Assembly (NCBI GenBank): GCA_002789915.1
Contig: PFUD01000082.1
Location: 1-42,166, forward strand
Reading direction: 5' to 3'
DNA length: 42,166 bases
Source: Comamonadaceae bacterium CG_4_9_14_3_um_filter_60_33
GTDB lineage: Bacteria > Pseudomonadota > Gammaproteobacteria > Burkholderiales > Burkholderiaceae_C
This document shows positions 7,642 to 27,675 of the stretch, piece after piece (positions within the stretch are counted from its first letter, which is position 1; every line of letters begins with the position of its first letter). The translations under genes were made by a program, and so were the position numbers. The notes under the pieces were generated by a model. It searched no databases. It had not been told where the DNA came from and worked only from the letters and a program-made list of their open reading frames with translations.

Positions 7642-8823
7642 ATGGGTAATATGAGCGACATTTTTGAGCTTGGACGCGATGCCTTGCAAGGCATTGAAAG
7701 CCGTCTTGGCATGACACGACGCGACTACCTGCAGTTTTGCGCCACGCTAGCGGTCACCATGGGCTTGCCCAAGGGGGCAGACGCCGCGGTGGCCAAAGCC
7801 ATTGAGTCGGCCCAGCGGCCGTCGGTGATCTGGCTGCACTTTCAGGAGTGCACCGGTTGCTCAGAATCGCTGTTGCGCGCCGAGCACCCGACGCTTGAAA
7901 AGCTCATCCTCGATGTGATCTCACTCGATTACCACGAGACCCTCATGGCCGCCGCAGGCCACCAGGCCGAAGCCGCCCGCAAGTCGGCCATGGCTGCCCA
8001 CAAGGGTAAATATGTGCTGGTGGTTGAGGGCGCGATTCCGGTCAAGGACAACGGTATTTACTGCAAGATTGGCGGCACCAGCGCCATCGATCTGCTCAAG
8101 GAATGTGCTGCCGATGCCGCCGCCGTGATTGCCATTGGCTCGTGTTCGTCATGGGGTGGTATGCCGTCATCCGGCGGCAACCCAACCGGCGCCTCCAGCG
8201 TGGGTGAGGTGTTGGGCAAACCAGTGGTCACCATCCCCGGTTGCCCACCCAACCCCTACAACTTTTTGGCGACCGTAGTGCACTTTTTGACCTTTGGCAA
8301 GCTGCCCGATGTCGACAAATTGGGCCGTCCCAAGTTTGCCTATTCGCGCCTGATCCACGAGCACTGCGAGCGCCGCGCCCACTTTGATGCAGGCCGCTTT
8401 GCCATGCAGTTTGGCGATGCCGGTCACCGTCAGGGCTATTGCCTGTACAAGCTGGGCTGCAAGGGGCCAGAGACCTACGCCAACTGCTCCACCATCGGCT
8501 TTGGCGATGCGGGTGAAAACAATTGGCCCGTGGGCTGCGGTCACCCCTGCATTGGCTGCACCGAAAAGGGCGTGGGCTTTACCAAACCGATTCACCAGGT
8601 AGCCACCGTCATCAACATCGTGCCGCCGCAGCAATACCCGCGCATCGTCGAAGAAAACGGCAAAGGGGCGAGCTTTGCGGCTGCCGCCGCGCTGGCGGCG
8701 TTGGCCGGGGCAGCAGCAGGCGGCGCGGCGATGTTGGCGCGCAATTTGGGCGCATCACACAAAATGGCCGAGGCAGAACAGGCCAATGCTGGCAGCACGA
8801 CCACAGACAAGAGTGAGGTCTGA
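7642..8823 (+). CDS. hybO: [NiFe] hydrogenase small subunit (HybO-like, group 1c type)
   Basis: Tat-like TRRDYLQF, WLHFQECTGCSESLLRAEHPT, IGSCSSWGGMPSSGGNPTGA, LIHEHCERRAHFDAGRFA, GCKGPETYANCST, C-terminal hydrophobic anchor. Confidence 0.95.
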   Translation: MGNMSDIFELGRDALQGIESRLGMTRRDYLQFCATLAVTMGLPKGADAAVAKAIESAQRPSVIWLHFQECTGCSESLLRAEHPTLEKLILDVISLDYHETLMAAAGHQAEAARKSAMAAHKGKYVLVVEGAIPVKDNGIYCKIGGTSAIDLLKECAADAAAVIAIGSCSSWGGMPSSGGNPTGASSVGEVLGKPVVTIPGCPPNPYNFLATVVHFLTFGKLPDVDKLGRPKFAYSRLIHEHCERRAHFDAGRFAMQFGDAGHRQGYCLYKLGCKGPETYANCSTIGFGDAGENNWPVGCGHPCIGCTEKGVGFTKPIHQVATVINIVPPQQYPRIVEENGKGASFAAAAALAALAGAAAGGAAMLARNLGASHKMAEAEQANAGSTTTDKSEV

Positions 8824-8825
8824 CC

Positions 8826-9821
8826 ATGGCCTCGCGTCGTCACTTTCTCAAGGGTGCGCTGGCCGGTGGGGCCGCCTTGGCGGGTGCCACATTGGCCCCA
8901 GAAGCCTGCGCCCGCGACACCCACACCCGCCCGGCCGAGGGCTTAGGTCTGCTTTACGATGCCACTTTGTGCATTGGCTGCAAAGCCTGCGTGGCCGCCT
9001 GCAAAGAGGCCAACGGCAATCCACCTGAGTTTTCAACTGAAGACCAGCTCTGGGACACGCCGCTTGACACCTCAGGCTACACCTTCAACATCATCAAGAT
9101 GTACCGCAACGGCACCATGCAAACCAAAGACGCCGAGGTCAATGGCTTCTCGTTCATGAAGACCTCGTGCATGCACTGTGCCGATCCGTCGTGCGTGTCA
9201 GCCTGCCCGGTCTCGGCCATGGTCAAAGACCCGATCACCGGCATCGTGTCGTATGACCCTGCCATCTGTGTCGGTTGCCGCTACTGCGTGGTGGCCTGTC
9301 CGTTTGGCATCCCCAAGTACCAATACGACTCGCCCACTGGCAAGATCGGCAAGTGCGAGCTGTGCCGCCACCGCTATGCCGACGGCCATTATTCAGCCTG
9401 TGCCGAGGTCTGCCCAACCGGCGCCACGCTGTACGGCAAAACCGCAGACTTGCTGGCCGAGGCCAAGCGCCGCATCGCCCTGGCGCCTGGCAGCCGCACC
9501 AGCTATCCGCGCGGCAAAATTGGCGGGCCGGACCAAAGCTATGAAGCGCCGGTGGGCAACTACCTGCAGCATGTGTATGGCGAGCACGAATACGGCGGCA
9601 CCCAGGTGCTCAAACTCTCTGCGGTCAACTTTCAAAAAGTCGGCATGCCCGACCTGCCCGCCAAGTCATCGGCGGCCACGTCCGAGACCATTCAGCATTC
9701 GCTCTACGGCGGACTGGTGCTGCCGGTGGTGGCTCTGGGAGCGCTGAGCTTTATCGCCAAACGAAATGTCAAACCTGATGACGATGCAGCCGCAAGTGAT
9801 CACAAGGAGGAGCAATCATGA
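8826..9821 (+). CDS. hybA: Hydrogenase 2 ferredoxin-type subunit HybA-like (4Fe-4S, Tat signal)
   Basis: Tat signal SRRHFLKGALAGGAALAGA; multiple CxxCxxC clusters (CIGCKACVAAC, CMHCADPSCVSACP, CVGCRYCVVACPFG); C-terminal hydrophobic segment. Confidence 0.93.
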   Translation: MASRRHFLKGALAGGAALAGATLAPEACARDTHTRPAEGLGLLYDATLCIGCKACVAACKEANGNPPEFSTEDQLWDTPLDTSGYTFNIIKMYRNGTMQTKDAEVNGFSFMKTSCMHCADPSCVSACPVSAMVKDPITGIVSYDPAICVGCRYCVVACPFGIPKYQYDSPTGKIGKCELCRHRYADGHYSACAEVCPTGATLYGKTADLLAEAKRRIALAPGSRTSYPRGKIGGPDQSYEAPVGNYLQHVYGEHEYGGTQVLKLSAVNFQKVGMPDLPAKSSAATSETIQHSLYGGLVLPVVALGALSFIAKRNVKPDDDAAASDHKEEQS

Positions 9822-10984
9822 GTGCACATGCCCACGCCGTACCCGCACCGGTCGGCGGTAATTTACTCAACGCTGTCACCCTGGTGTGCGGTGTGTTGAT
9901 CGCCATCATGGCGGCCATCTTGCTCACCCGTTTTATTTTTGGCTTGGGCAGTGTCACCAACATCAACGACGGCTACTCCTGGGGCATCTGGGTGGTGGTT
10001 GATGTGATGATCGGCTCGGCGCTTGCCTGCGGCGGCTTTTCGGTGGCGCTGCTGGTCTATATCTTTAATAAAGGCCAATACCATCCGCTGGTACGACCCG
10101 CGTTGCTGGCCAGCCTGTTTGGCTACACCCTGGCCGGCACCGGCATCTTTGTCGACTTGGGGCGCTGGTGGAATTTTTGGCACATCTTCTGGCCCAGCTA
10201 TTCCAACCCCAACTCGGTGATGTTTGAGGTGGCGGTGTGCGTCACGGCTTACATCGTGGTCATGTGGATTGAGTTCTCGCCCGTGTTCCTTGAAAAGCTC
10301 GGCATGAAAGACGTGCGCCAAAAGCTCAACAAGCTGCTGTTTTTCTTCATCGCTCTGGGCGTGTTGTTGCCCATGATGCACCAGTCGTCGTTGGGCACCA
10401 TGCTGGTGGTGATGGGCAGCCAGGTTAACCCGCTGTGGCAAACCCCGCTGCAACCGGTCATCTACCTGCTCACGGCCATCGTGATTGGCTATGGTGTGGT
10501 GCTGTTTGAGTCGTGTGTGGCGGCCGCGTCTTACCGGCGCAGCATCGAGGTGCATTTGCTTGACCCACTGGCCAAAATCATGCTGGGTGTACTGGCGCTG
10601 TACTTGGTGGTGCGGCTGGTCGACTTGACGGTGCGCGGTGCCTGGGGTGGCGCATTTGAATTCAGCGGCATCGCGGTCTCGTTCTGGATCGAAAACCTGG
10701 CATTTCTGGCCCCGTTCATCCTGATTGGCAGCACCCAAGCCCGACGCAACCCGGCCAACCTGTTTCTAGCGGGTATTGCCATCATGGTCGGTGGCGTGTT
10801 GCTTCGGCTCAACGGTTTTTTGATCGGCTACGGGCATCACACCGGCACGGGTTGGAGCTACTTTCCGTCGATCTACGAAATCATGGTGACTACGGGCTTT
10901 TTTGCCATCGAGGTACTGGGCTACATCATCATCACCCGGCGTTTTCCCGTATTGCCGCGTGAAGACGCACGCGCAACAATTTAA
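9818..10984 (+). CDS. hybB: Hydrogenase 2 integral membrane subunit HybB-like (NrfD/PsrC family)
   Basis: Polytopic protein, WGIWVVVDVMIGSALACGGF, position between hybA and hybC. Confidence 0.92.
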   Translation: MSAHAHAVPAPVGGNLLNAVTLVCGVLIAIMAAILLTRFIFGLGSVTNINDGYSWGIWVVVDVMIGSALACGGFSVALLVYIFNKGQYHPLVRPALLASLFGYTLAGTGIFVDLGRWWNFWHIFWPSYSNPNSVMFEVAVCVTAYIVVMWIEFSPVFLEKLGMKDVRQKLNKLLFFFIALGVLLPMMHQSSLGTMLVVMGSQVNPLWQTPLQPVIYLLTAIVIGYGVVLFESCVAAASYRRSIEVHLLDPLAKIMLGVLALYLVVRLVDLTVRGAWGGAFEFSGIAVSFWIENLAFLAPFILIGSTQARRNPANLFLAGIAIMVGGVLLRLNGFLIGYGHHTGTGWSYFPSIYEIMVTTGFFAIEVLGYIIITRRFPVLPREDARATI

Positions 10985-11030
10985 AGCGTTGTGAACAACG
11001 CTCATTCAAGAATTATCTAGGAGACATTAC

Positions 11031-12737
11031 ATGGCACAACGCATCACCATCGACCCCATCACCCGCATTGAGGGGCATCTGCGCATTGACGTGGACATCA
11101 ACGGCGGCAAGGTCAACAAGGCCTGGTCGTCTGGCCAGATGTGGCGTGGGGTAGAGCTGATCTTGCTGGGCCGCGACCCGCGCGATGCCTGGACCATCAC
11201 CCAGCGCATTTGCGGCGTCTGCACCACGGTGCACGCCATCTGCTCGGTGCGCGCCGTTGAGAACGCGCTCAACCTGGAGATTCCGCTTAACGCCCAGTAC
11301 ATCCGCAATATCATCATCACGGCGCACGCGGTACACGATGCCATCGTGCATTTTTATCACCTCTCCGCGCTGGACTGGGTCGATGTGGTGTCTGCCCTCA
11401 AGGCCGACCCGGACAAAACCGCCGTGCTGGGCGAGAGTCTGTCAAGCTGGCACCTCAACAGCAAACACGAGATGCGCCGCGTGCACGAACGCCTGAAAGG
11501 CTTTGTCAACGGCGGTCAGCTTGGCATCTTTACCAACGGCTACTGGGGTCACCCGGCCATGAAGCTCTCGCCCGAAGTGAACCTGCTGGCGGTATCGCAC
11601 TACCTGCAAGCGCTGGAAGTGCAGCGCAAGGCCAACAAGATTGTGGCCATTTTGGGCTCCAAAACGCCGCATATTCAGAATGTGGCGGTGGGCGGCGTCG
11701 CCAACCCGCTGGCCACGGACTCTGAAGCCGTGTTAACGGTCGAACGCCTGATGGCGATCAAGGGCTACATCGACGACCTGGCCGACTTTGTCAAAAACGT
11801 TTACCTGGTCGATGTAGCCGCCGTGGGCGCTTTCTACCCCGAGTGGACCAAAATTGGCAAAGGCATTACCAACTACCTGTCAGTGCCTGACATTCCCCTG
11901 GACACCAAGGGCACGCAGTTTGCCTTCCCCGGCGGTTACATCCCCGGCGGCGATTTGAGCAAGCGCAAAGCCATTACCAGTTTCCATGACGAATATTGGC
12001 AAAAAGGCGTTGAGGAATCGGTCAAGCACTCTTGGTACAACTACGCGGATGCCAAGTCGCTGCACCCGTACAAAGGAGAGACCACGCCCAACTACACCGA
12101 CTTCAAGGACGATGCCAAATACTCCTGGCTCAAGTCGCCCACCTTTTATGGCGAGGTGGCGCAGGTTGGGCCACTGGCGCGCGTGTTGAACGGCCTGGCT
12201 GCCGGGCATGAACCCACCACCAAATACGCCACCGCCGCGCTCGACACCGTGTCAGCCCTGGCCAAGACCAAGATCGGCCTGGACGCGATGCACTCCACCA
12301 TTGGCCGCCACGCCGCCCGTGCCATCACCTGCTGCATGAATGTCGATACCCTGGCCGACCAGTGGACGCTCTTGCTGACCAACATGGGCAAGGGCGACAT
12401 GGCAACCTTCAATGCGCCAGTGTTCCCCAAAGGCGAGTCGATGGGCGTGGGTTTTCATGAGGCACCGCGCGGCGCGCTGTCGCACTGGGTGGTGATTGAC
12501 AACGGCAAGATCAAAAACTACCAATGCGTGGTGCCCTCCACCTGGAACGCCTGCCCGCGCAACGACAAAGACGAGCCCGGGCCGTACGAAGCCTCACTGG
12601 TGGACACCCCCATTGCCGATCCGGAAAAGCCACTGGAAGTGCTGCGCACCATCCACTCGTTTGACCCCTGTATCGCTTGCGCCATCCACCTGACCGACCC
12701 AAAAAGCGGCGCAGCGTTTTCAGTCAAGGCGGTCTAG
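11031..12737 (+). CDS. hybC: [NiFe] hydrogenase large subunit (HybC-like)
   Basis: L1 motif RICGVCTTVHA, L2 motif SFDPCIACAIH followed by the cleavable C-terminal tail LTDPKSGAAFSVKAV. Confidence 0.96.
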   Translation: MAQRITIDPITRIEGHLRIDVDINGGKVNKAWSSGQMWRGVELILLGRDPRDAWTITQRICGVCTTVHAICSVRAVENALNLEIPLNAQYIRNIIITAHAVHDAIVHFYHLSALDWVDVVSALKADPDKTAVLGESLSSWHLNSKHEMRRVHERLKGFVNGGQLGIFTNGYWGHPAMKLSPEVNLLAVSHYLQALEVQRKANKIVAILGSKTPHIQNVAVGGVANPLATDSEAVLTVERLMAIKGYIDDLADFVKNVYLVDVAAVGAFYPEWTKIGKGITNYLSVPDIPLDTKGTQFAFPGGYIPGGDLSKRKAITSFHDEYWQKGVEESVKHSWYNYADAKSLHPYKGETTPNYTDFKDDAKYSWLKSPTFYGEVAQVGPLARVLNGLAAGHEPTTKYATAALDTVSALAKTKIGLDAMHSTIGRHAARAITCCMNVDTLADQWTLLLTNMGKGDMATFNAPVFPKGESMGVGFHEAPRGALSHWVVIDNGKIKNYQCVVPSTWNACPRNDKDEPGPYEASLVDTPIADPEKPLEVLRTIHSFDPCIACAIHLTDPKSGAAFSVKAV

Positions 12738-18808: not shown

Positions 18809-19041
18809 CGCTACCCGTCAAAGTGATTGAAGTGGGCTGCGGCCCGGACGGCGAACACGCCATGGTTGACTTAGTGGGAGTCAAAAAAGAGATCTCGCTG
18901 GCGCTGCTCGACGACGTGCAAGTGGGGGATTACGTCATCTTGCATGTCGGCTACGCCCTGTCCAAGCTCGACCCCGAAGAGGCCGAGCGCACGCTGGCGC
19001 TGTTCTCAGAGATGTCCGAAGCCACTGAGGCCACACTGTGA
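18799..19041 (+). CDS. hypC: Hydrogenase assembly chaperone HypC (second copy)
   Basis: MCLALPVKVIEVGCG..HAMVDLVGVKKEISLALLDDVQVGDYVILHVGYALSKLDPEEAERTL. Confidence 0.96.
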   Translation: MCLALPVKVIEVGCGPDGEHAMVDLVGVKKEISLALLDDVQVGDYVILHVGYALSKLDPEEAERTLALFSEMSEATEATL

Positions 19042-20219
19042 AATACATCGACGAATTCCGCGACGGCGAGGTCGCCAAAACCCTGGCGCTCAAAATCGCC
19101 AAACTGGCGCAACCCGGGCGCAATTACAGCTTTATGGAATTTTGCGGCGGCCACACGCACGCGATTTCGCGCTACGGACTATCTGACCTGCTGCCATCCA
19201 ATGTGCGCATGGTGCACGGCCCCGGCTGCCCGGTGTGCGTGCTGCCCATTGGCCGCATCGACATGGCGATTGACTTGGCGCTAAAGCACAACGTGATTGT
19301 GTGCAGCTACGGCGACACCTTACGCGTGCCCGCGTCTGAAAGCTTGTCGCTGCTCAAAGCCAAAGCGCGCGGCGGCGACATTCGCATGGTCTATTCCACG
19401 CTCGATGCACTGCAAATAGCGCGTGACAACCCGGGCCGTGAGGTGGTGTTTTTTGCCATCGGTTTTGAGACCACCACACCGCCCACGGCGCTGGCCATTT
19501 TGCAAGCCGCCCAAGAAAACTTGAGCAACTTCAGCGTGCTGTGCTGCCATGTGCTCACGCCTGCGGCCATCACCCAGATTTTGGAGTCGCCCGAAGTGCG
19601 GCAATGGGGCACGGTGCCGATCGACGGCTTTATTGGCCCAGCGCATGTCTCCACCGTGATCGGCAGTCGACCCTATGAATTTTTTGCCGAAGAATACCGC
19701 AAGCCGGTGGTCATTGCCGGCTTTGAGCCGCTCGATGTAATGCAGGCCATTTTGATGCTGATCGCCCAGGTCAACGACGGCCGCGCCGAGGTCGAAAATG
19801 AATTTTCCCGAGCCGTGAGCCGCGACGGCAACCGCAAAGCGCAAGATCGCGTGGCCGAAGTGTTTGAGCTGCGCCATGAATTTGAGTGGCGTGGCCTCTC
19901 GGTGGTGCCCTACTCGGCCCTCAAAATCCGCGAAAAATATGGCACTTTCGATGCCGAGCGCCGTTTCAAAATGGACTACCAATCGGTGCCCGACAACAAG
20001 GCCTGCGAATGCGGTGCCATTTTGCGCGGCGTCAAGCGCCCCCAAGACTGCAAGATTTTCGGCACCGTCTGCACCCCAGAAAACCCAATCGGCTCGTGCA
20101 TGGTCAGCAGCGAAGGCGCCTGCGCGGCGTATTACAGTTACGGCCGCTACAAGGATATGGCGCCACCCGTCAGCAACTCTTTGGTCGCCAGCCGACTCAC
20201 AGGCGCCGAGGGAAAATAA
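19038..20219 (+). CDS. hypD: Hydrogenase maturation protein HypD
   Basis: FMEFCGGHTHAI, GPGCPVCVLP, ACECGAILRGVKRPQDCKIFGTVCTPENPIGSCMVSSEGACAAYY. Confidence 0.98.
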   Translation: MKYIDEFRDGEVAKTLALKIAKLAQPGRNYSFMEFCGGHTHAISRYGLSDLLPSNVRMVHGPGCPVCVLPIGRIDMAIDLALKHNVIVCSYGDTLRVPASESLSLLKAKARGGDIRMVYSTLDALQIARDNPGREVVFFAIGFETTTPPTALAILQAAQENLSNFSVLCCHVLTPAAITQILESPEVRQWGTVPIDGFIGPAHVSTVIGSRPYEFFAEEYRKPVVIAGFEPLDVMQAILMLIAQVNDGRAEVENEFSRAVSRDGNRKAQDRVAEVFELRHEFEWRGLSVVPYSALKIREKYGTFDAERRFKMDYQSVPDNKACECGAILRGVKRPQDCKIFGTVCTPENPIGSCMVSSEGACAAYYSYGRYKDMAPPVSNSLVASRLTGAEGK

Positions 20220-20224
20220 TAATA

Positions 20225-22348
20225 ATGAAAGCAACCGAAGCAAACCTGCTCAAGTTCCTCAGGAAATCACCGCAGTTTGCCATTCCCCTCTACCAGAGGA
20301 ATTACGCTTGGACCAGTGCCCAGTGTCGCCAGCTTTGGTCGGACTTGATGCGTGCTGGCCGCGATGCAACGACCACAGCGCACTTTATTGGCGCCATCGT
20401 GTACGTTGAACGTGGTCTGGCTAATGTCACTTGCCCTGAAGCCTTGTTGGTCATTGACGGCCAACAACGTTTAATCACCAGTTCGCTGCTGATTGCAGCC
20501 TTGGCGAAGCACTTTGAATCACAAGGACTAGGCGAACTGCTGGACGCTTTTTCTAGCAAGAAACTCCGAAACTACTACCTGCTAAACCCCGACGAAGATG
20601 GCGAGCGACATTTCAAACTGATCTTGTCCGAGACAGATAAAGACACCCTGCTGGCTATCCTTCAAAACTCGCCTATGCCCGCGGAGGAAAGCAGTCGCAT
20701 CGTAGAAAACTACACGTTGTTTCAAGAGTTGATTGCGGCGCACCACAGCGAGATTGAGGCGATCTGCCAAGGCTTGGCTAAGCTGGTTATCGTTGACGTT
20801 TCGCTGGACCGTGCGCAAGACAATCCTCAGTTAATTTTTGAGAGCATGAATTCCACTGGTCTTGAACTTAGCCAAGCCGACCTGATCCGCAATTTCATCC
20901 TGATGGGACTTGAGACCAAGCTGCAAACCGACCTGTACAAGACGTATTGGCGACCGATGGAAAAAGCCTTTGGTCAATCAGCCTATTTAGTGCACTTTGA
21001 TGCCTTCATGCGCCATTATCTGACAGCAAAAACCGGTGAAATTCCGAACGTTCGTGAGGTCTATGTGGCCTTCAAAAATTTTGCACACGGCTTGAAGGGT
21101 GACACACGCGACCTGGTTTCAGACATCCATGCGTATGCAACGTACTACTGTGCCATGGCACTAGGCACTGAAAAAGTGTCAGCGCTCAAACAAGCCTTTC
21201 ATGACTTGCGTGAATTGAAGGTGGATGTTGCATATCCGTTTCTGCTGGATGTGTATCACGACTATAGCTTGAGTCGTCTCACCGCTGAGGAGGTTTTGTG
21301 CATTGTTCGTCTTGTGGAAAGCTATGTCTTTAGGCGCGCCATATGCGCCATACCAACCAATTCGCTGAACAAGACTTTTGCAGGCATGAGCCGCTTGCTC
21401 AAGAAAGACCGCTATCTGGAGAGCGTTCAAGCAGCACTCCTCATGCTGCCGTCCTACCGCCGATTCCCCACTGATGAAGAATTTTTGCGCGACATCAAGG
21501 TGCGGGACCTCTACAACTTTAGAAGCCGTGGCTATTGGTTGCGCCGTCTGGAGAATCATGGGCGCAAGGAGCGTGTGATGGTGGAGGACTACACCATTGA
21601 ACACATTCTTCCGCAAAACGAGACTCTGTCCAAAGAATGGCAAGCCGAACTGGGGCCTGATTGGCAACGCATTCAACAAGAATGGCTGCACACCCTCGGC
21701 AATCTCACTCTGACGGGCTACAACAGCGAGTACAGTGATCATGCTTTTGCTTTTAAGCGTGACAAAGTAATCGACAAAAGCGGTAGCCCTGTAGGCTTTG
21801 CCCACAGCCCACTCAAACTAAACCTTGGGCTTGGTCAAATTGCAGTATGGAACGAAGCCGCCATCAAAACCCGCGCTGACGGTTTGTCATTAGAAGCTGC
21901 CAAGGTATGGGGTGCACCTCAACTGCCAGCCGACGTACTTGATGCCTACCGTCCTGCTGTAGCTAAGCCTGGCCAACCCTATGCTCTTGCCGACCATCCA
22001 TACCTGGCATTTGGGCAGTTGCGCACGTTATTTGATACCTTTCGCAAAGCGGTTTTGGCATTAGACCCATGCGTCAGCGAAGAATTTTTGAAGCTTTATG
22101 TAGCCTACAAGGCTGAAACCAACTTCGTTGATGTGGTACCGCAAGCCAAGCGCTTGTTGTTGATACTGAATCTCAGCATCGGGGACATAGAAGACCCTAA
22201 AGCTTTATGCCGCGATATCTCAAATATTGGGCGCTGGGGCAATGGCAATGTAGAAGTGGGGCTGTCCTCTACCGATGAAATGCCGTATGTGATGGGTCTT
22301 GTTCGACAGTCGTTTGACCACCAGATGGGTGATCCGCAAAATGCATGA
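20225..22348 (+). CDS. DUF262 + DUF1524 (GmrSD-like) protein; probable type IV restriction or anti-phage nuclease
   Basis: FAIPLYQRNYAWTSAQCRQLW and VIDGQQRLITSSLLI (DUF262 / ParB-like NTPase signature); C-terminal YTIEHILPQNETLSKEW...HTLGNLTLTGYNSEYS (DUF1524 HNH-like); RBS-like GAGGGA at the end of hypD. Confidence 0.88.
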   Translation: MKATEANLLKFLRKSPQFAIPLYQRNYAWTSAQCRQLWSDLMRAGRDATTTAHFIGAIVYVERGLANVTCPEALLVIDGQQRLITSSLLIAALAKHFESQGLGELLDAFSSKKLRNYYLLNPDEDGERHFKLILSETDKDTLLAILQNSPMPAEESSRIVENYTLFQELIAAHHSEIEAICQGLAKLVIVDVSLDRAQDNPQLIFESMNSTGLELSQADLIRNFILMGLETKLQTDLYKTYWRPMEKAFGQSAYLVHFDAFMRHYLTAKTGEIPNVREVYVAFKNFAHGLKGDTRDLVSDIHAYATYYCAMALGTEKVSALKQAFHDLRELKVDVAYPFLLDVYHDYSLSRLTAEEVLCIVRLVESYVFRRAICAIPTNSLNKTFAGMSRLLKKDRYLESVQAALLMLPSYRRFPTDEEFLRDIKVRDLYNFRSRGYWLRRLENHGRKERVMVEDYTIEHILPQNETLSKEWQAELGPDWQRIQQEWLHTLGNLTLTGYNSEYSDHAFAFKRDKVIDKSGSPVGFAHSPLKLNLGLGQIAVWNEAAIKTRADGLSLEAAKVWGAPQLPADVLDAYRPAVAKPGQPYALADHPYLAFGQLRTLFDTFRKAVLALDPCVSEEFLKLYVAYKAETNFVDVVPQAKRLLLILNLSIGDIEDPKALCRDISNIGRWGNGNVEVGLSSTDEMPYVMGLVRQSFDHQMGDPQNA

Positions 22349-22401
22349 TTTAAGAGAAGCACCAATGAACAAAACAGGTTATTTATTTTGCGCGTGTGAG
22401 C

Positions 22402-23448
22402 ATGACTGACTTGACGTCGCGTGTGTCATTACCCAGCGAGTTGCTGGACGCTTTGCGGACGTTGATCCAGCAAGGCCGCCAGAAAGCCTTGCGAGCAGTG
22501 GACCGGGTACAGGTGCAAACCTGTTGGGAAGTTGGTCACCACATTGTCGAATTTGAACAAGGCGGGGAATCTCGGGCGGCTTATGGAAAGCAGTTATTGC
22601 CACGCCTGGCTACCGTCCTGACGCGTGAATTTGGCAAGGGGTTTGATGCCTCCAACCTGCGTTATATGCGCTTGTTTTATCACGAATTGAGCTGGACTCA
22701 CTACCGGTTGCTACTGCGGGTCAGCAGCGTGAAGGCGCGCCAATGGTACATGGACGAGTCTGCCGCACAAAATTGGACTTCGCGTGCACTTGAGCGGCAA
22801 ATTGACACCTTGTATTTTGAGCGTTTGCTGCTCCGCGATGACAAGGCCAGCGTCACGGCAGAGGCCAATGCCAAGGTTGCAGCCCTGCCCCAAACACCCC
22901 GCGAGTTTCTGCGTGACCCGGTCATGCTTGAATTTTTGGGCTTACCCGGCACGGGCAAACTGCTTGAATCCAAACTGGAGCAAGCCTTGATGGACAAGCT
23001 GCAAAATTTTTGGCTTGAACTGGGCAAGGGTTTTGCGTTTGTTGCACGGCAGCAGCGCATCAGTACCGAGTTTCAGGATTTTTATATTGACCTGGTGTTT
23101 TACAACTACCTGCTCAAATGCTTTGTGTTGATCGACCTTAAAACCGGCAAGCTCACGCACCAGAACATCGGCCAGATGGACATGTATGTGCGTATGTACG
23201 ACGACCTGAAACGTGGCCCGGACGACAACCCAACGGTTGGCATCTTGTTATGTGACCAAAAAGACCAGTCGGTTGCACGCTATTCAGTGCTCAAAGACAG
23301 CGAGCAACTGTTCGCCACCAAATACCGTTTGATCTTGCCATCAGAGGACGAATTGCGCAGCCAAATCGAGCTTGAACGTCAGTCGATTGAAGACGCGCTA
23401 CGCCTAGAAAAGTTTAATGAATTCTTTGAGGATCCTAGCGATGACTGA
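22402..23448 (+). CDS. DUF1016/YhcG-like PD-(D/E)XK nuclease domain protein
   Basis: QTCWEVGHHIVEFEQGG..AAYGKQLLPRLATVLTREFGKGFDASNLRYMRLFY (DUF1016 N-domain) and FQDFYIDLVFYNYLLKCFVLIDLKTGKLTHQNIGQMDMYV (nuclease core). Confidence 0.88.
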   Translation: MTDLTSRVSLPSELLDALRTLIQQGRQKALRAVDRVQVQTCWEVGHHIVEFEQGGESRAAYGKQLLPRLATVLTREFGKGFDASNLRYMRLFYHELSWTHYRLLLRVSSVKARQWYMDESAAQNWTSRALERQIDTLYFERLLLRDDKASVTAEANAKVAALPQTPREFLRDPVMLEFLGLPGTGKLLESKLEQALMDKLQNFWLELGKGFAFVARQQRISTEFQDFYIDLVFYNYLLKCFVLIDLKTGKLTHQNIGQMDMYVRMYDDLKRGPDDNPTVGILLCDQKDQSVARYSVLKDSEQLFATKYRLILPSEDELRSQIELERQSIEDALRLEKFNEFFEDPSDD

Positions 23449-24505
23449 CATCCAACGCGGTTACACCCGCCCGCTCGACCTGAAGCACGGCCGGGTCGAT
23501 ATGACGCATGGCTCGGGCGGGCGGGCCATGGTGCAGCTCATTGCTGAGCTGTTTGCCAAGCACCTGGGCAACACCTATCTGGGCCAGGGCAACGATGGTG
23601 CCGTGCTGCCTGCACCCATCATCGACGGACAGCCGGCCCGACTGGTCATGTCCACCGACTGCCATGTGGTGTCACCGCTGTTTTTTCCGGGTGGTGACAT
23701 CGGTTGTTTGTCGGTGCACGGCACGCTCAACGATGTGGCGGTGATGGGCGCCACCCCGCTGTACCTGGCCGCCGGCTTTATTCTGGAAGAAGGCTTGCCG
23801 CTAGCCGACCTGGCGCGCATTGTCGAATCGATGGCGCGCGCTGCCCGTGAGGCGGGGGTGCCGGTGGTCACCGGCGACACCAAAGTGGTGGAGCGCGGCA
23901 AGGGCGACGGCATTTTCATCACCACCACGGGTGTGGGCGTGCTGCCTCACGGGCTGGACTTGGGCGGTGCGCGGGTGCGCCCGGGCGACGCGGTTCTGGT
24001 ATCTGGCACCATGGGCGACCATGGCGTGGCCATCATGAGTCTGCGCGAAAACCTGACGTTTGAGGCCACCATCAACTCCGACACGGCCGCACTGCATGGC
24101 TTGATTGCCGAGCTGCTGGCCACCGGGGCCGACATCCGCTGCCTGCGCGACCCCACGCGTGGCGGGCTTGCCTCGACCTTGAACGAGATTGCCGGGCAGT
24201 CTGGCGTGGGCATGATGCTGCATGAGAAGGCCATTCCAATGAAGCCCGTGGTGGCGGCCGCCTGCGAATTTTTGGGCCTCGACCCGCTGTATGTGGCCAA
24301 CGAAGGCAAGCTGATTGTGATTTGTGCGGCGGCCGACGCAACGCAGTTACTGGCTGTGATGCGCGCCCACCCGCTTGGCCAGGATGCCGCACAAATTGGC
24401 GAGGTGCTGTCCGACGACCACCATTTTGTCCAGCTCACCACCGCCTTTGGCGGCCGACGCATTGTCGATTGGTTGGCCGGTGAACAATTGCCGCGCATTT
24501 GCTAA
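23441..24505 (+). CDS. hypE: Hydrogenase maturation protein HypE
   Basis: DMTHGSGGRAMVQLI, GNDGAVL, C-terminal ending PRIC; start overlaps the upstream stop by 8 nt. Confidence 0.97.
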   Translation: MTDIQRGYTRPLDLKHGRVDMTHGSGGRAMVQLIAELFAKHLGNTYLGQGNDGAVLPAPIIDGQPARLVMSTDCHVVSPLFFPGGDIGCLSVHGTLNDVAVMGATPLYLAAGFILEEGLPLADLARIVESMARAAREAGVPVVTGDTKVVERGKGDGIFITTTGVGVLPHGLDLGGARVRPGDAVLVSGTMGDHGVAIMSLRENLTFEATINSDTAALHGLIAELLATGADIRCLRDPTRGGLASTLNEIAGQSGVGMMLHEKAIPMKPVVAAACEFLGLDPLYVANEGKLIVICAAADATQLLAVMRAHPLGQDAAQIGEVLSDDHHFVQLTTAFGGRRIVDWLAGEQLPRIC

Positions 24506-24517
24506 AGTGCTTCATCC

Positions 24518-26215
24518 ATGCGTATCCTGCTTCTTACCCACGCCTTCAACAGCCTGACCCAGCGCCTGGGCGCCGAACTGCGCCAGCGCGGCCACTTGGT
24601 GTCGGTTGAATTTGACATCAGCGACTCGGTGACCGAAGAGGCCGCCAGCTTGTTTGCGCCGGATTTGATCGTGGCACCTTACCTGCGCCGCGCCATTCCT
24701 GAGTCGGTCTGGCAGCACACGGTGTGCCTGATCGTCCACCCCGGCCTGGAGGGCGACCGCGGGCCGTCGGCGCTGGACTGGGCCATCATGAATCAGCGCA
24801 CCGCATGGGGCGTGACCGTGTTGCAAGCTGAAAGCGAGATGGACGCCGGGCCGGTCTGGGCCAGCGCCAACTTTGCCATGCGTGCCGCCAGTAAGGCCAG
24901 CCTGTACCGTAATGAGACGACGCAAGCTGCCACAGCTGCCGTGTTGCAGGCGGTAGAACACTTTACCGCTGGCAATTTTGTGCCGCAGCGCAAATCAAGC
25001 AGCCAGTGGCAGCCGCTGATCAAACAAGCCGACCGCGTCATCAACTGGCAACGGGATGACACCGCGTCGGTGCTGCGCAAAATCAATGCAGCGGACGGGT
25101 TTCCTGGCGTGGCTGACACGCTGTTTGATCAGCCCTGTCACCTGTTCGATGCCTGGCCTGAAGCCACTTTGCGCGGTGCCCCCGGCGTGGTAATCGCCCA
25201 ACGCGAAACCGCCCTGCTGCGCGCCACCGTCGATGGCGCAGTGTGGCTGGGCCATGTCAAGCGCACGGGCAGCATCAAGCTGCCCGCAACTCTGGCTTTT
25301 GCACAAGAAGCAGCCACCGTGCCACACGCCCCGCTGCCAGACTGGTGGCGCGCGCCAGCACCAACCTGGCAAGACATTGCCTACGAAGAAGCCGGCGATG
25401 TGGGTTATTTGCATTTCGAGTTCTACAACGGCGCCATGTCCACACGCCAATGCGAGCGCTTGCGCACTGCCCTGCTCTGGGCCCAGCAGCGCCCCACGCG
25501 CGTGCTGGTGTTGCTGGGTGGGCATGACTTTTGGTCCAACGGCATCCATCTGAACGTGATCGAAGCTGCCAGCCTGAATGGCGGTTCTGCGGCGGATGAA
25601 TCCTGGCGCAACATCAACGCCATGAACGACCTGGCGCTGGCGTTCATCACCACCACGCAGCAAATCACGGTGGCAGCCATTGGTGGCAACACTGGGGCGG
25701 GCGGCTGCTTTTTGGCGCGCGCGGCCGACCAGGTGTGGGTGCGCGACGGCGTCATGCTCAACCCGCATTACAAAAACATGGGCAACCTGTACGGCTCGGA
25801 ATACTGGACCTACCTGCTGCCGCGCCGCGTTGGGCCAGAAGCGGCGCAAGCCATCATGCACAACCGCCAACCGCTCACGGCGCAGGGTGCGCTGCAAATT
25901 GGTCTGACCGATGCCTGCCTGAGCGGTGACGTAGCGGCCTTTCGCGCCGAGATCGCAAGCATGGCAACCCGGTTGGCAAATGCCCCCGCCTTGCCCGAGC
26001 AACTGGCCGCCAAAGCCGAAGCCCGCGCCAGCGACGAGGCGGCCAAACCACTGTCCGCTTACCGAGATGAGGAGATGGCCCACATGCACCGCAATTTTTA
26101 CGGCTTCGATTCCAGCTACCACATTGCACGGCACCACTTTGTACAAAAGTCGCTTGCCTCCTGGACGCCACGCCACCTGGCGCTGCACCGTGAACTGGGT
26201 TGGAAACTGCCATGA
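24518..26215 (+). CDS. hoxX: Hydrogenase maturation protein HoxX (formyltransferase / enoyl-CoA hydratase-like)
   Basis: N-terminal formyl-transferase-like half (HPGLEGDRGPSALDWAIMN) and C-terminal crotonase-like half (GGHDFWSNGIHLNVIEAA, IGGNTGAGGCFLARAADQVW, PHYKNMGNLYGSEYWTYLLPRRVG). Confidence 0.95.
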   Translation: MRILLLTHAFNSLTQRLGAELRQRGHLVSVEFDISDSVTEEAASLFAPDLIVAPYLRRAIPESVWQHTVCLIVHPGLEGDRGPSALDWAIMNQRTAWGVTVLQAESEMDAGPVWASANFAMRAASKASLYRNETTQAATAAVLQAVEHFTAGNFVPQRKSSSQWQPLIKQADRVINWQRDDTASVLRKINAADGFPGVADTLFDQPCHLFDAWPEATLRGAPGVVIAQRETALLRATVDGAVWLGHVKRTGSIKLPATLAFAQEAATVPHAPLPDWWRAPAPTWQDIAYEEAGDVGYLHFEFYNGAMSTRQCERLRTALLWAQQRPTRVLVLLGGHDFWSNGIHLNVIEAASLNGGSAADESWRNINAMNDLALAFITTTQQITVAAIGGNTGAGGCFLARAADQVWVRDGVMLNPHYKNMGNLYGSEYWTYLLPRRVGPEAAQAIMHNRQPLTAQGALQIGLTDACLSGDVAAFRAEIASMATRLANAPALPEQLAAKAEARASDEAAKPLSAYRDEEMAHMHRNFYGFDSSYHIARHHFVQKSLASWTPRHLALHRELGWKLP

Positions 26216-27675
26216 GCCCAGCGCGCGCGCCCCTGTCAGTCTTGGTGGTCGATGATGAGCAGCGCTCGCTCGAAACACTCAAACGCACGCTGGACGAATA
26301 TTTCACGGTCTTCACCGCCAATTCAGCGGAGGAAGGCATGGCCGTGATGCACAACGAAGCGGTGCAAATTGTGGTGTCCGACCAGCGCATGCCCGGCACC
26401 TCGGGGGTGGCGTTTTTGCGTGCCGTGCGCGACCAGTGGCCTGACACGGTGCGGCTGATTTTGTCGGGCTACACCGAGGCCGAAGACATCATCACCGGCA
26501 TCAATGAGGCTGGCATCTGGCAGTACTTGCTCAAGCCCTGGCACCCCGACCAGTTGCTGCTCACGCTGCAAGGCGCGGGCGAGCTTTGGCGCCTGCAACA
26601 AGAAAACCAGCGCCTCACGCTGGAGCTACGCACCCACCCCGACAGCTTGGCGCTGCGCGTGGCCGGGCTACGCCAACAAGCCAAGGCACTGGCCGGTTTT
26701 GACAAACTGCTGCGCACCCCCAGTAGCCCACTCAATGCGGTGTGCACATTGGCACAGCGTATTGCCGGGCATGATCTGTCGGTGCTCATCACGGGCGAAT
26801 CAGGTACCGGCAAAGAGCTGCTGGCGCGCGCCATGCATTACGCCAGCGCCCGTGCCGAGCAGCCTTTTGTGGTGGAAAACTGCGGTGCCCTGCCCGACAC
26901 GCTGCTTGAGAGCGAGCTGTTTGGCCACAAGCGCGGAGCCTTTACCGGAGCCACCGATGCGCACATCGGCTTGTTTCAGCAGGCTGATGGCGGCACGCTG
27001 TTTCTGGATGAAATTGGCGAGACCTCGTCTGCCTTTCAGGTCAAGCTGCTGCGCGCGCTGCAAGAGGGCGAGATTCGCCCGCTGGGCAGTGCGCGCCCGG
27101 TGGCGGTCGATGTGCGCCTGATTGCCGCCACCAACCGCAACCTCGAAGACGACGTGGCCAGCGGCCGCTTTCGCGAAGACCTGTACTACCGCGTGGCCGG
27201 CATCACACTGTATTTGCCCGCGCTACGCGAGCGCTCCCAAGACATCCCGCTGCTGGTGGCTGACCTTTTGAAAAAATCCCCCTTGATCGGGCGCAGCCTC
27301 TCAGATGAGGCAATGGTCCTGCTGATAAGCCACAGTTGGCCGGGCAATGTGCGCGAGCTGCAAAACGAGATTCGTCGCGCCATGGCGATCAGTGACGGTG
27401 CTGTGCTGGGTGTCGAACTGCTGTCGCCGCGCTTGCTGCGGGCAGCGCTTACGGCACAAAGCACCCACCCTGCCAGCGAGACCAGCGAAGCCTCAAAAGA
27501 TACCTTTGCCGACAGCTCAGGCCAGCTTAAACACCACCTCGAGCGTTTCGAGGCACAGCTAATTCGAGATGCCATGCTGCGCCACAAGTCCAACAAGACC
27601 CATGTCGCCGAAGAACTCGGCTTGACCCGCGTGGGTTTGCGCATGAAGCTGATACGGCTGGGTTTGGTCAGCTAA
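26212..27675 (+). CDS. hoxA: HoxA-type sigma54-dependent response regulator
   Basis: Receiver domain VLVVDDEQRSLETL, AAA+ GESGTGKELLARAMHYAS and FGHKRGAFTGAT, C-terminal Fis-type HTH; located after hoxX. Confidence 0.93.
   Translation: MSPARAPLSVLVVDDEQRSLETLKRTLDEYFTVFTANSAEEGMAVMHNEAVQIVVSDQRMPGTSGVAFLRAVRDQWPDTVRLILSGYTEAEDIITGINEAGIWQYLLKPWHPDQLLLTLQGAGELWRLQQENQRLTLELRTHPDSLALRVAGLRQQAKALAGFDKLLRTPSSPLNAVCTLAQRIAGHDLSVLITGESGTGKELLARAMHYASARAEQPFVVENCGALPDTLLESELFGHKRGAFTGATDAHIGLFQQADGGTLFLDEIGETSSAFQVKLLRALQEGEIRPLGSARPVAVDVRLIAATNRNLEDDVASGRFREDLYYRVAGITLYLPALRERSQDIPLLVADLLKKSPLIGRSLSDEAMVLLISHSWPGNVRELQNEIRRAMAISDGAVLGVELLSPRLLRAALTAQSTHPASETSEASKDTFADSSGQLKHHLERFEAQLIRDAMLRHKSNKTHVAEELGLTRVGLRMKLIRLGLVS

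Follow-up and report, generated by a model that had tools for sequence, protein, structure and literature searches.

The hydrogenase maturation genes of the window, the whole 42,166-nt stretch analysed here from a Comamonadaceae bacterium, are interrupted between hypD and hypE by two genes of nuclease families, which raises the question of whether these form one cassette or entered the junction separately. The hypD, DUF262, DUF1016 and hypE genes lie in one direction and are tightly packed (Table 1). The DUF262 start codon follows the hypD stop after 5 nt and the last 8 nt of DUF1016, stop codon included, are shared with the start of hypE (ATGACTGA), with both hypD and hypE intact, which confirmed the clean placement proposed in the initial annotation, just as profile matches confirmed its identification of the four genes. 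A foreign composition of the guests had also been proposed. GC3 was 0.56 for the DUF262 gene and 0.63 for the DUF1016 gene in comparison with 0.70–0.77 for hypF, hypC, hypD, hypE and their neighbours, in agreement with this proposal, and, as stated previously, no recombinase, transposase or integrase was seen adjoining either gene in the window.

Table 1. Features of the hypD–hypE junction in the window.
Feature	Position	Strand	Basis or remarks
hypD, intact	19038..20219	+	TIGR00075, 489 bits
DUF262-DUF1524-DUF5655 gene (GmrSD/RloF-like), 707 aa	20225..22348	+	ATG start; profile search and motifs
DUF1016/YhcG PD-(D/E)XK nuclease gene	22396 (GTG) or 22402 (ATG)..23448	+	Profile search, motifs, model
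ATGACTGAC 9-mer, DUF1016 start	22402..22410	+	Same 9 letters at the hypE start (23441-23449), giving a short direct repeat on both sides of DUF1016
30-nt deletion scar	22670..22689	+	Junction ~22679/22680, 3-nt repeat TCA; left arm and centre gone
Leftover right half-arm TCACGAATTG	22680-22689	+	In the window DUF1016 gene
GAGGA, likely hypE ribosome-binding site	23428..23432	+	In the DUF1016 3' end; sequence reading
hypE, intact	23441..24505	+	TIGR02124, 449 bits

A complete Hyb-type [NiFe] hydrogenase (7642-12737), a CbiQ-type transporter gene, hypB, hypF and a HoxA-type sigma-54 response regulator (26200-27675) are also encoded in the window, and a Formyl_trans/ECH_1 gene fits hypX. A scan of the stretch for promoter-like and terminator-like sequences gave matches between hypD and hypE at chance level. 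As no convincing promoter of their own was found, the host hyp operon would supply the transcription of the guests, and judging by the layout of the locus the DUF262 and DUF1016 genes are probably co-transcribed with the hydrogenase maturation genes. Control of the guests by hydrogen or nickel would follow from gene order alone. The HypD protein of the window has a lineage-specific C-terminal extension of 17-18 aa relative to most relatives. The region of this extension (20160-20224) coincides with the DUF262 insertion point. Neither the 62-nt extension of the hypD tail nor the 53-nt spacer between DUF262 and DUF1016 had a match indicating its source among the relatives' loci compared.

The DUF262 protein matched GmrSD_N (PF03235, 5e-33), GmrSD_C (PF07510, 3e-21) and, at its C-terminus, DUF5655 (1e-10), a third domain that refines the earlier description as DUF262/DUF1524. 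The GmrSD family is characterized by the motifs (I/V)DGQQR, (E/D)H(I/L/V)xPQ and L(G/A)NLxL..N, and its relatives occur in RM loci (PMC4619093). In the window protein, the GmrS motif is intact (VIDGQQRLIT, residues 76-85, matching the (I/V)(I/V)DGQQRLTT pattern), as are the GmrD motifs (IEHILPQ, 458-464, and LGNLTLTGYN, 491-500), whose key residues are invariant across 13 orthologues. The full-length protein is 81-85% identical to several orthologues. With these motifs kept, the natural reading is that of a putative GmrSD-type NTP-stimulated, modification-dependent DNA endonuclease. The best PADLOC model was 'Orf5' (PDLC02693, 2e-180). An identity as SspE was not supported, the PADLOC SspE models matching only weakly (~1e-14) and in the N-terminal part. 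The AlphaFold model of the protein (pLDDT 49) was too low in confidence for use.

The DUF1016 protein contains DUF1016_N (PF17761, 8e-36) and YhcG_C (PF06250, 2e-55) domains and the E-D-(D/E)xK catalytic pattern (E206, D230, D245-L-K247). Its AlphaFold model, of low-to-moderate confidence (pLDDT 72), matched NucS/EndoMS (2.4e-6) and Card1/Can2 nucleases (Card1, 4e-4) in Foldseek. YhcG was previously placed in the PD-(D/E)XK superfamily as similar to Holliday-junction resolvases (PMC1189080). No described function of the YhcG family was found in the literature searched, and PADLOC carries DUF1016/YhcG (COG4804) merely as a candidate, PDC-S02. The model and the motifs point to a PD-(D/E)XK DNA nuclease with a presumed defence or selfish role. 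The assignment of both guests to defence-type families, made initially, was upheld by the domain and PADLOC matches. In the alignment with its sister from G313, a genome of another species in the same genus, the window DUF1016 gene showed a 30-nt in-frame deletion, which removed 10 aa (QVFPIRDALR) from DUF1016_N and most of a perfect palindrome (CAATTCGTGACGCACTGCGTCACGAATTG) present in G313.

The initial annotation regarded the two genes as one cassette and functional pair, which was not borne out by the comparison with relatives. The hypD gene directly abuts hypE in 19 other loci of the same genus and about 27 of the same family. The G313 junction is arranged as hypD-DUF1016-hypE and lacks DUF262, the proteins being 94% (hypD), 82% (DUF1016) and 90% (hypE) identical to those from the window. 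This independent junction argues against an assembly chimera as the origin of the DUF1016 arrangement. A clean presence or absence at related junctions was found insofar as most of them are empty, but the guest in G313 is DUF1016 only and not the pair. In G249, from another genus of the family, the ORFs between hypD and hypE (L068, 820-1444) were read as an RHH-antitoxin/RelE-like toxin pair. The junction is the same as in the window and the host genes are intact on both sides, whereas the inserted genes differ and no common mobility machinery was seen.

No DUF1016 gene was located beside the DUF262 orthologues of 72-84% identity (n = 14, L011-L025) and no DUF262 gene beside the closest DUF1016 orthologues. 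Recurrent DUF262-DUF1016 neighbours were not seen at unrelated loci with one non-orthologous exception, G102 (L003), in which a 62% identical DUF262 and a 29% identical DUF1016 lie upstream of an apparent hsdS. The DUF262 orthologues occupy mostly islands resembling type III RM systems (SNF2 helicase, DUF4391, DUF262, N6_N4_Mtase, ResIII) and also other islands. Several are flanked by DUF4391 on one side and a type III-like methyltransferase on the other (L012, L019, L025), and a more distant copy directly precedes thiD (L004). The DUF1016 orthologues of 66-79% identity are solo, in loci of RM or housekeeping genes: they accompany hsdM-like genes (L083 and L086), separate subunit genes of a hydrogenase-4-like operon (G350, L272, 3149-9346, and G317, L271), lie between Mod and Res (G304), before gltD with the gltB tail about 2 kb upstream (G030), after parE (G208) or before ubiD (G142). 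A relative of 52% identity lies between ABC-transporter genes (G036). The G317 copy is broken and without the palindrome region. A type III RM-like island composed of SNF2 helicase, DUF4391, optional DUF262, N6_N4 methylase, optional DUF1016 and Res recurred in L012, L019, L025 and L270. The solo DUF1016 in G313, the toxin–antitoxin pair in G249 and the separate distributions of the two guests indicate that the hypD–hypE junction is a slot into which solo genes of a selfish or defence kind have repeatedly inserted.

The final hypD codons of relatives include AAGGA, the likely ribosome-binding site of hypE, whereas the end of DUF1016 in the window provides GAGGA, 9 nt ahead of the hypE start. 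The hypD tail is duplicated in degenerate form between DUF1016 and hypE of G313 (ACAAGGACATGACAACATGAG versus ACAAGGATATGACGGCATGAG), and this second copy restores AAGGA and the start of hypE. Such arrangements suggest that the hypE ribosome-binding site was likely re-supplied after each insertion. G313 and certain loci adjoining hsdM gave hints that DUF1016 had captured the first codons of its downstream neighbour. A permutation test on 51 loci gave 5.90 matches to the own neighbour versus 5.91 to others, and due to this null result start capture is not claimed as a general rule.

Three other explanations were weighed against two separate arrivals. A genuine GmrSD-YhcG defence module, moving and working as a unit and parked in the hyp operon, would account for the adjacency, common direction and tight packing of the genes, the defence association of both families and their accessory position in type III RM islands of one kind, although in different genomes. 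It is considered improbable, since the G313 junction holds DUF1016 only, no pair was seen among the 14 DUF262 orthologues of 72-84% identity or the closest DUF1016 orthologues, and the neighbouring genes in G102, the one other such pair, include a different DUF1016. Nor does it seem at all likely that a type III RM island (SNF2-DUF4391-(DUF262)-Mod-(DUF1016)-Res) entered the hyp operon and lost its core RM genes. The position of DUF262 between DUF4391 and Mod and that of DUF1016 between Mod and Res would fit such a remnant, but no island with both genes was seen, no trace of Mod, Res or helicase is present between hypD and hypE, and the solo DUF1016 in G313 speaks against it as well. That the guests are decaying functionless passengers, kept because their removal would disturb hypE translation, is rather doubtful. 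The loss of 10 aa and of the palindrome from DUF1016 and the position of the likely hypE ribosome-binding site within its 3' end are consistent with decay; however, both ORFs are open and full length, the nuclease motifs are intact and DUF262 has retained its high identity to orthologues over the whole length.

The explanation considered quite probable is that of two separately mobile single-gene nucleases, inserted successively at the hypD/hypE translational junction and now probably co-transcribed with the hydrogenase maturation genes. DUF1016/YhcG would have entered the junction alone, as in G313, and the DUF262 gene would then have joined upstream of it in the window lineage, the most likely order. 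Against this explanation, neighbouring genes acquired separately could still cooperate, and the absence of DUF262 from G313 might reflect loss there instead of gain in the window. In the hyp tree, G313 groups with the empty G346 and the window with the empty G327, and the DUF1016 proteins of both are sisters (99/95). The divergence between the window and G313 at fourfold sites, where the hyp genes, with their biased codon usage, approach saturation, was 0.54 for DUF1016, 0.31 for hypD and 0.37 for hypE, which hints at separate DUF1016 insertions in the two lineages. One insertion followed by losses, lateral transfer of the locus and two insertions are all possible histories. The separateness of DUF262 from DUF1016 stands whichever applies.

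The palindrome affected by the deletion is about 29 bp long and odd, with the centre 4 codons before an LSW motif, and it was scored over 13 pairs. All 13 pairs are present in the G313 gene versus 2 in the window copy. At the fixed register, at least 9 of 13 pairs were found in 53 of 65 cellular DUF1016 genes and in 1.9% of phase-matched control centres; at least 11 pairs were found in 38 of the 65 genes and in 0.1% of control centres. A search of the IMG/VR viral and prophage set gave no matches with a single-protein query and 45 loci with an alignment query. With the best centre in codons 85-150 taken instead of a single fixed register, at least 10 of 13 pairs were detected in 39 of 42 of these genes, nearly all at codons 99-124, and only 9 of the 42 had an equally good palindrome elsewhere in the gene.

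The stem sequence differs from gene to gene, yet it is self-complementary. Swapping of arms between genes reduced Watson–Crick pairing from 90% to 48%, hence neither the amino acids nor a common sequence explains the palindrome. The core of 42 distinct palindromes (pooled and clustered at 80%) comprised 274 Watson–Crick pairs out of 294, with 3 G-T and 8 A-C pairs. An RNA hairpin was rejected because G-T wobble was not enriched over A-C, and double-stranded DNA is preferred. A dispersed genomic repeat was also rejected, as a sub-clade pattern occurred once each in 9 of 90 genomes of the genus, and every occurrence was within or next to a DUF1016 gene or its relic. No published description of the in-gene palindrome was found in the literature searched.

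The yhcG gene of E. coli K-12 contains three tandem palindromes with a 39-nt period and a related one just after the stop codon (L186, 6142, 6181, 6220 and 6982), all four with a common CAGAC..GTCTG core. E. coli yhcG alleles carry one to three copies, and a compensatory double change distinguishes alleles RS571 and KKa019. Matches to the yhcG region were obtained in 4401 of 5426 complete E. coli genomes. In L243 (1673-1765), yhcG is cut off just after the third palindrome and a transposase ORF comes next; the truncated type (174-nt match) recurs in the E. coli search. Some DUF1016 genes of the same genus have a second palindrome, ATTCGTCACGAGNCTCGTGACGAAT, located about 85 nt upstream of their starts (G350, G304 and G317). 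In G305, this second palindrome terminates what is left of a broken DUF1016 gene. Its sites are L130 4695, L131 4144, L133 5011 and L132 4073.

A symmetric duplex DNA site of about 29 bp would suit a dimeric protein, with YhcG as the simplest candidate, acting as a repressor of its own gene or on an extruded cruciform. A site bound or cut by a symmetric protein, which may be YhcG itself, would best explain the DUF1016-borne palindrome, which the window copy has lost. We tentatively put forward, as a possibility short of even, that DUF1016/YhcG genes are solo guests in the operons of others, each carrying an in-frame palindrome with its own stem that YhcG recognises as double-stranded DNA; this site would serve either as its operator or, in cruciform form, as a substrate suited to its Holliday-junction-resolvase-like nuclease domain. 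Such in-frame placement of the element would be well suited to a gene relying on host-operon promoters. If so, a nuclease gene without the palindrome, such as the hyp-operon copy of the window, would escape this control, and the window copy may therefore be unregulated or decaying. A template-switching bias toward perfect palindromes could keep the stems symmetric, yet their constant position in different phyla would be left unexplained.

The embedded pair is modest news, namely that a metabolic operon can acquire defence nucleases singly and that the hypD–hypE slot is used repeatedly. The palindrome matters more, as an element kept in coding sequence across phyla, in three copies in E. coli K-12 yhcG, and as a concrete handle on what the YhcG family, predicted nucleases of bacteria and prophages, binds or cuts. 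The earlier description of the locus is right; its reading as a module found no support. The palindrome is what merits further attention.

Compared with known systems, the DUF262 protein resembles the GmrSD/RloF type IV restriction family, including Eco94GmrSD, BrxU and SspE, in its fused DUF262-DUF1524 architecture and motifs and in having relatives in RM loci. It differs by the additional C-terminal DUF5655, by its location between hypD and hypE instead of in a defence island, and by being closest to PADLOC Orf5 and to neither the SspE nor the GmrSD model. The DUF1016 protein shares both domains, the catalytic pattern and the NucS/EndoMS- and Can2/Card1-like AF2 model with the YhcG/DUF1016 family, whereas the 10-aa deletion in DUF1016_N, the lost palindrome and the placement between hypD and hypE set the window copy apart from other genes of this family. 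Rickettsia palindromic elements and REP elements are short palindromes in or near genes, tolerated in the reading frame. Unlike them, the DUF1016 palindrome shows no genome-wide repetition, has stems that vary and is tied to one family and one codon position.
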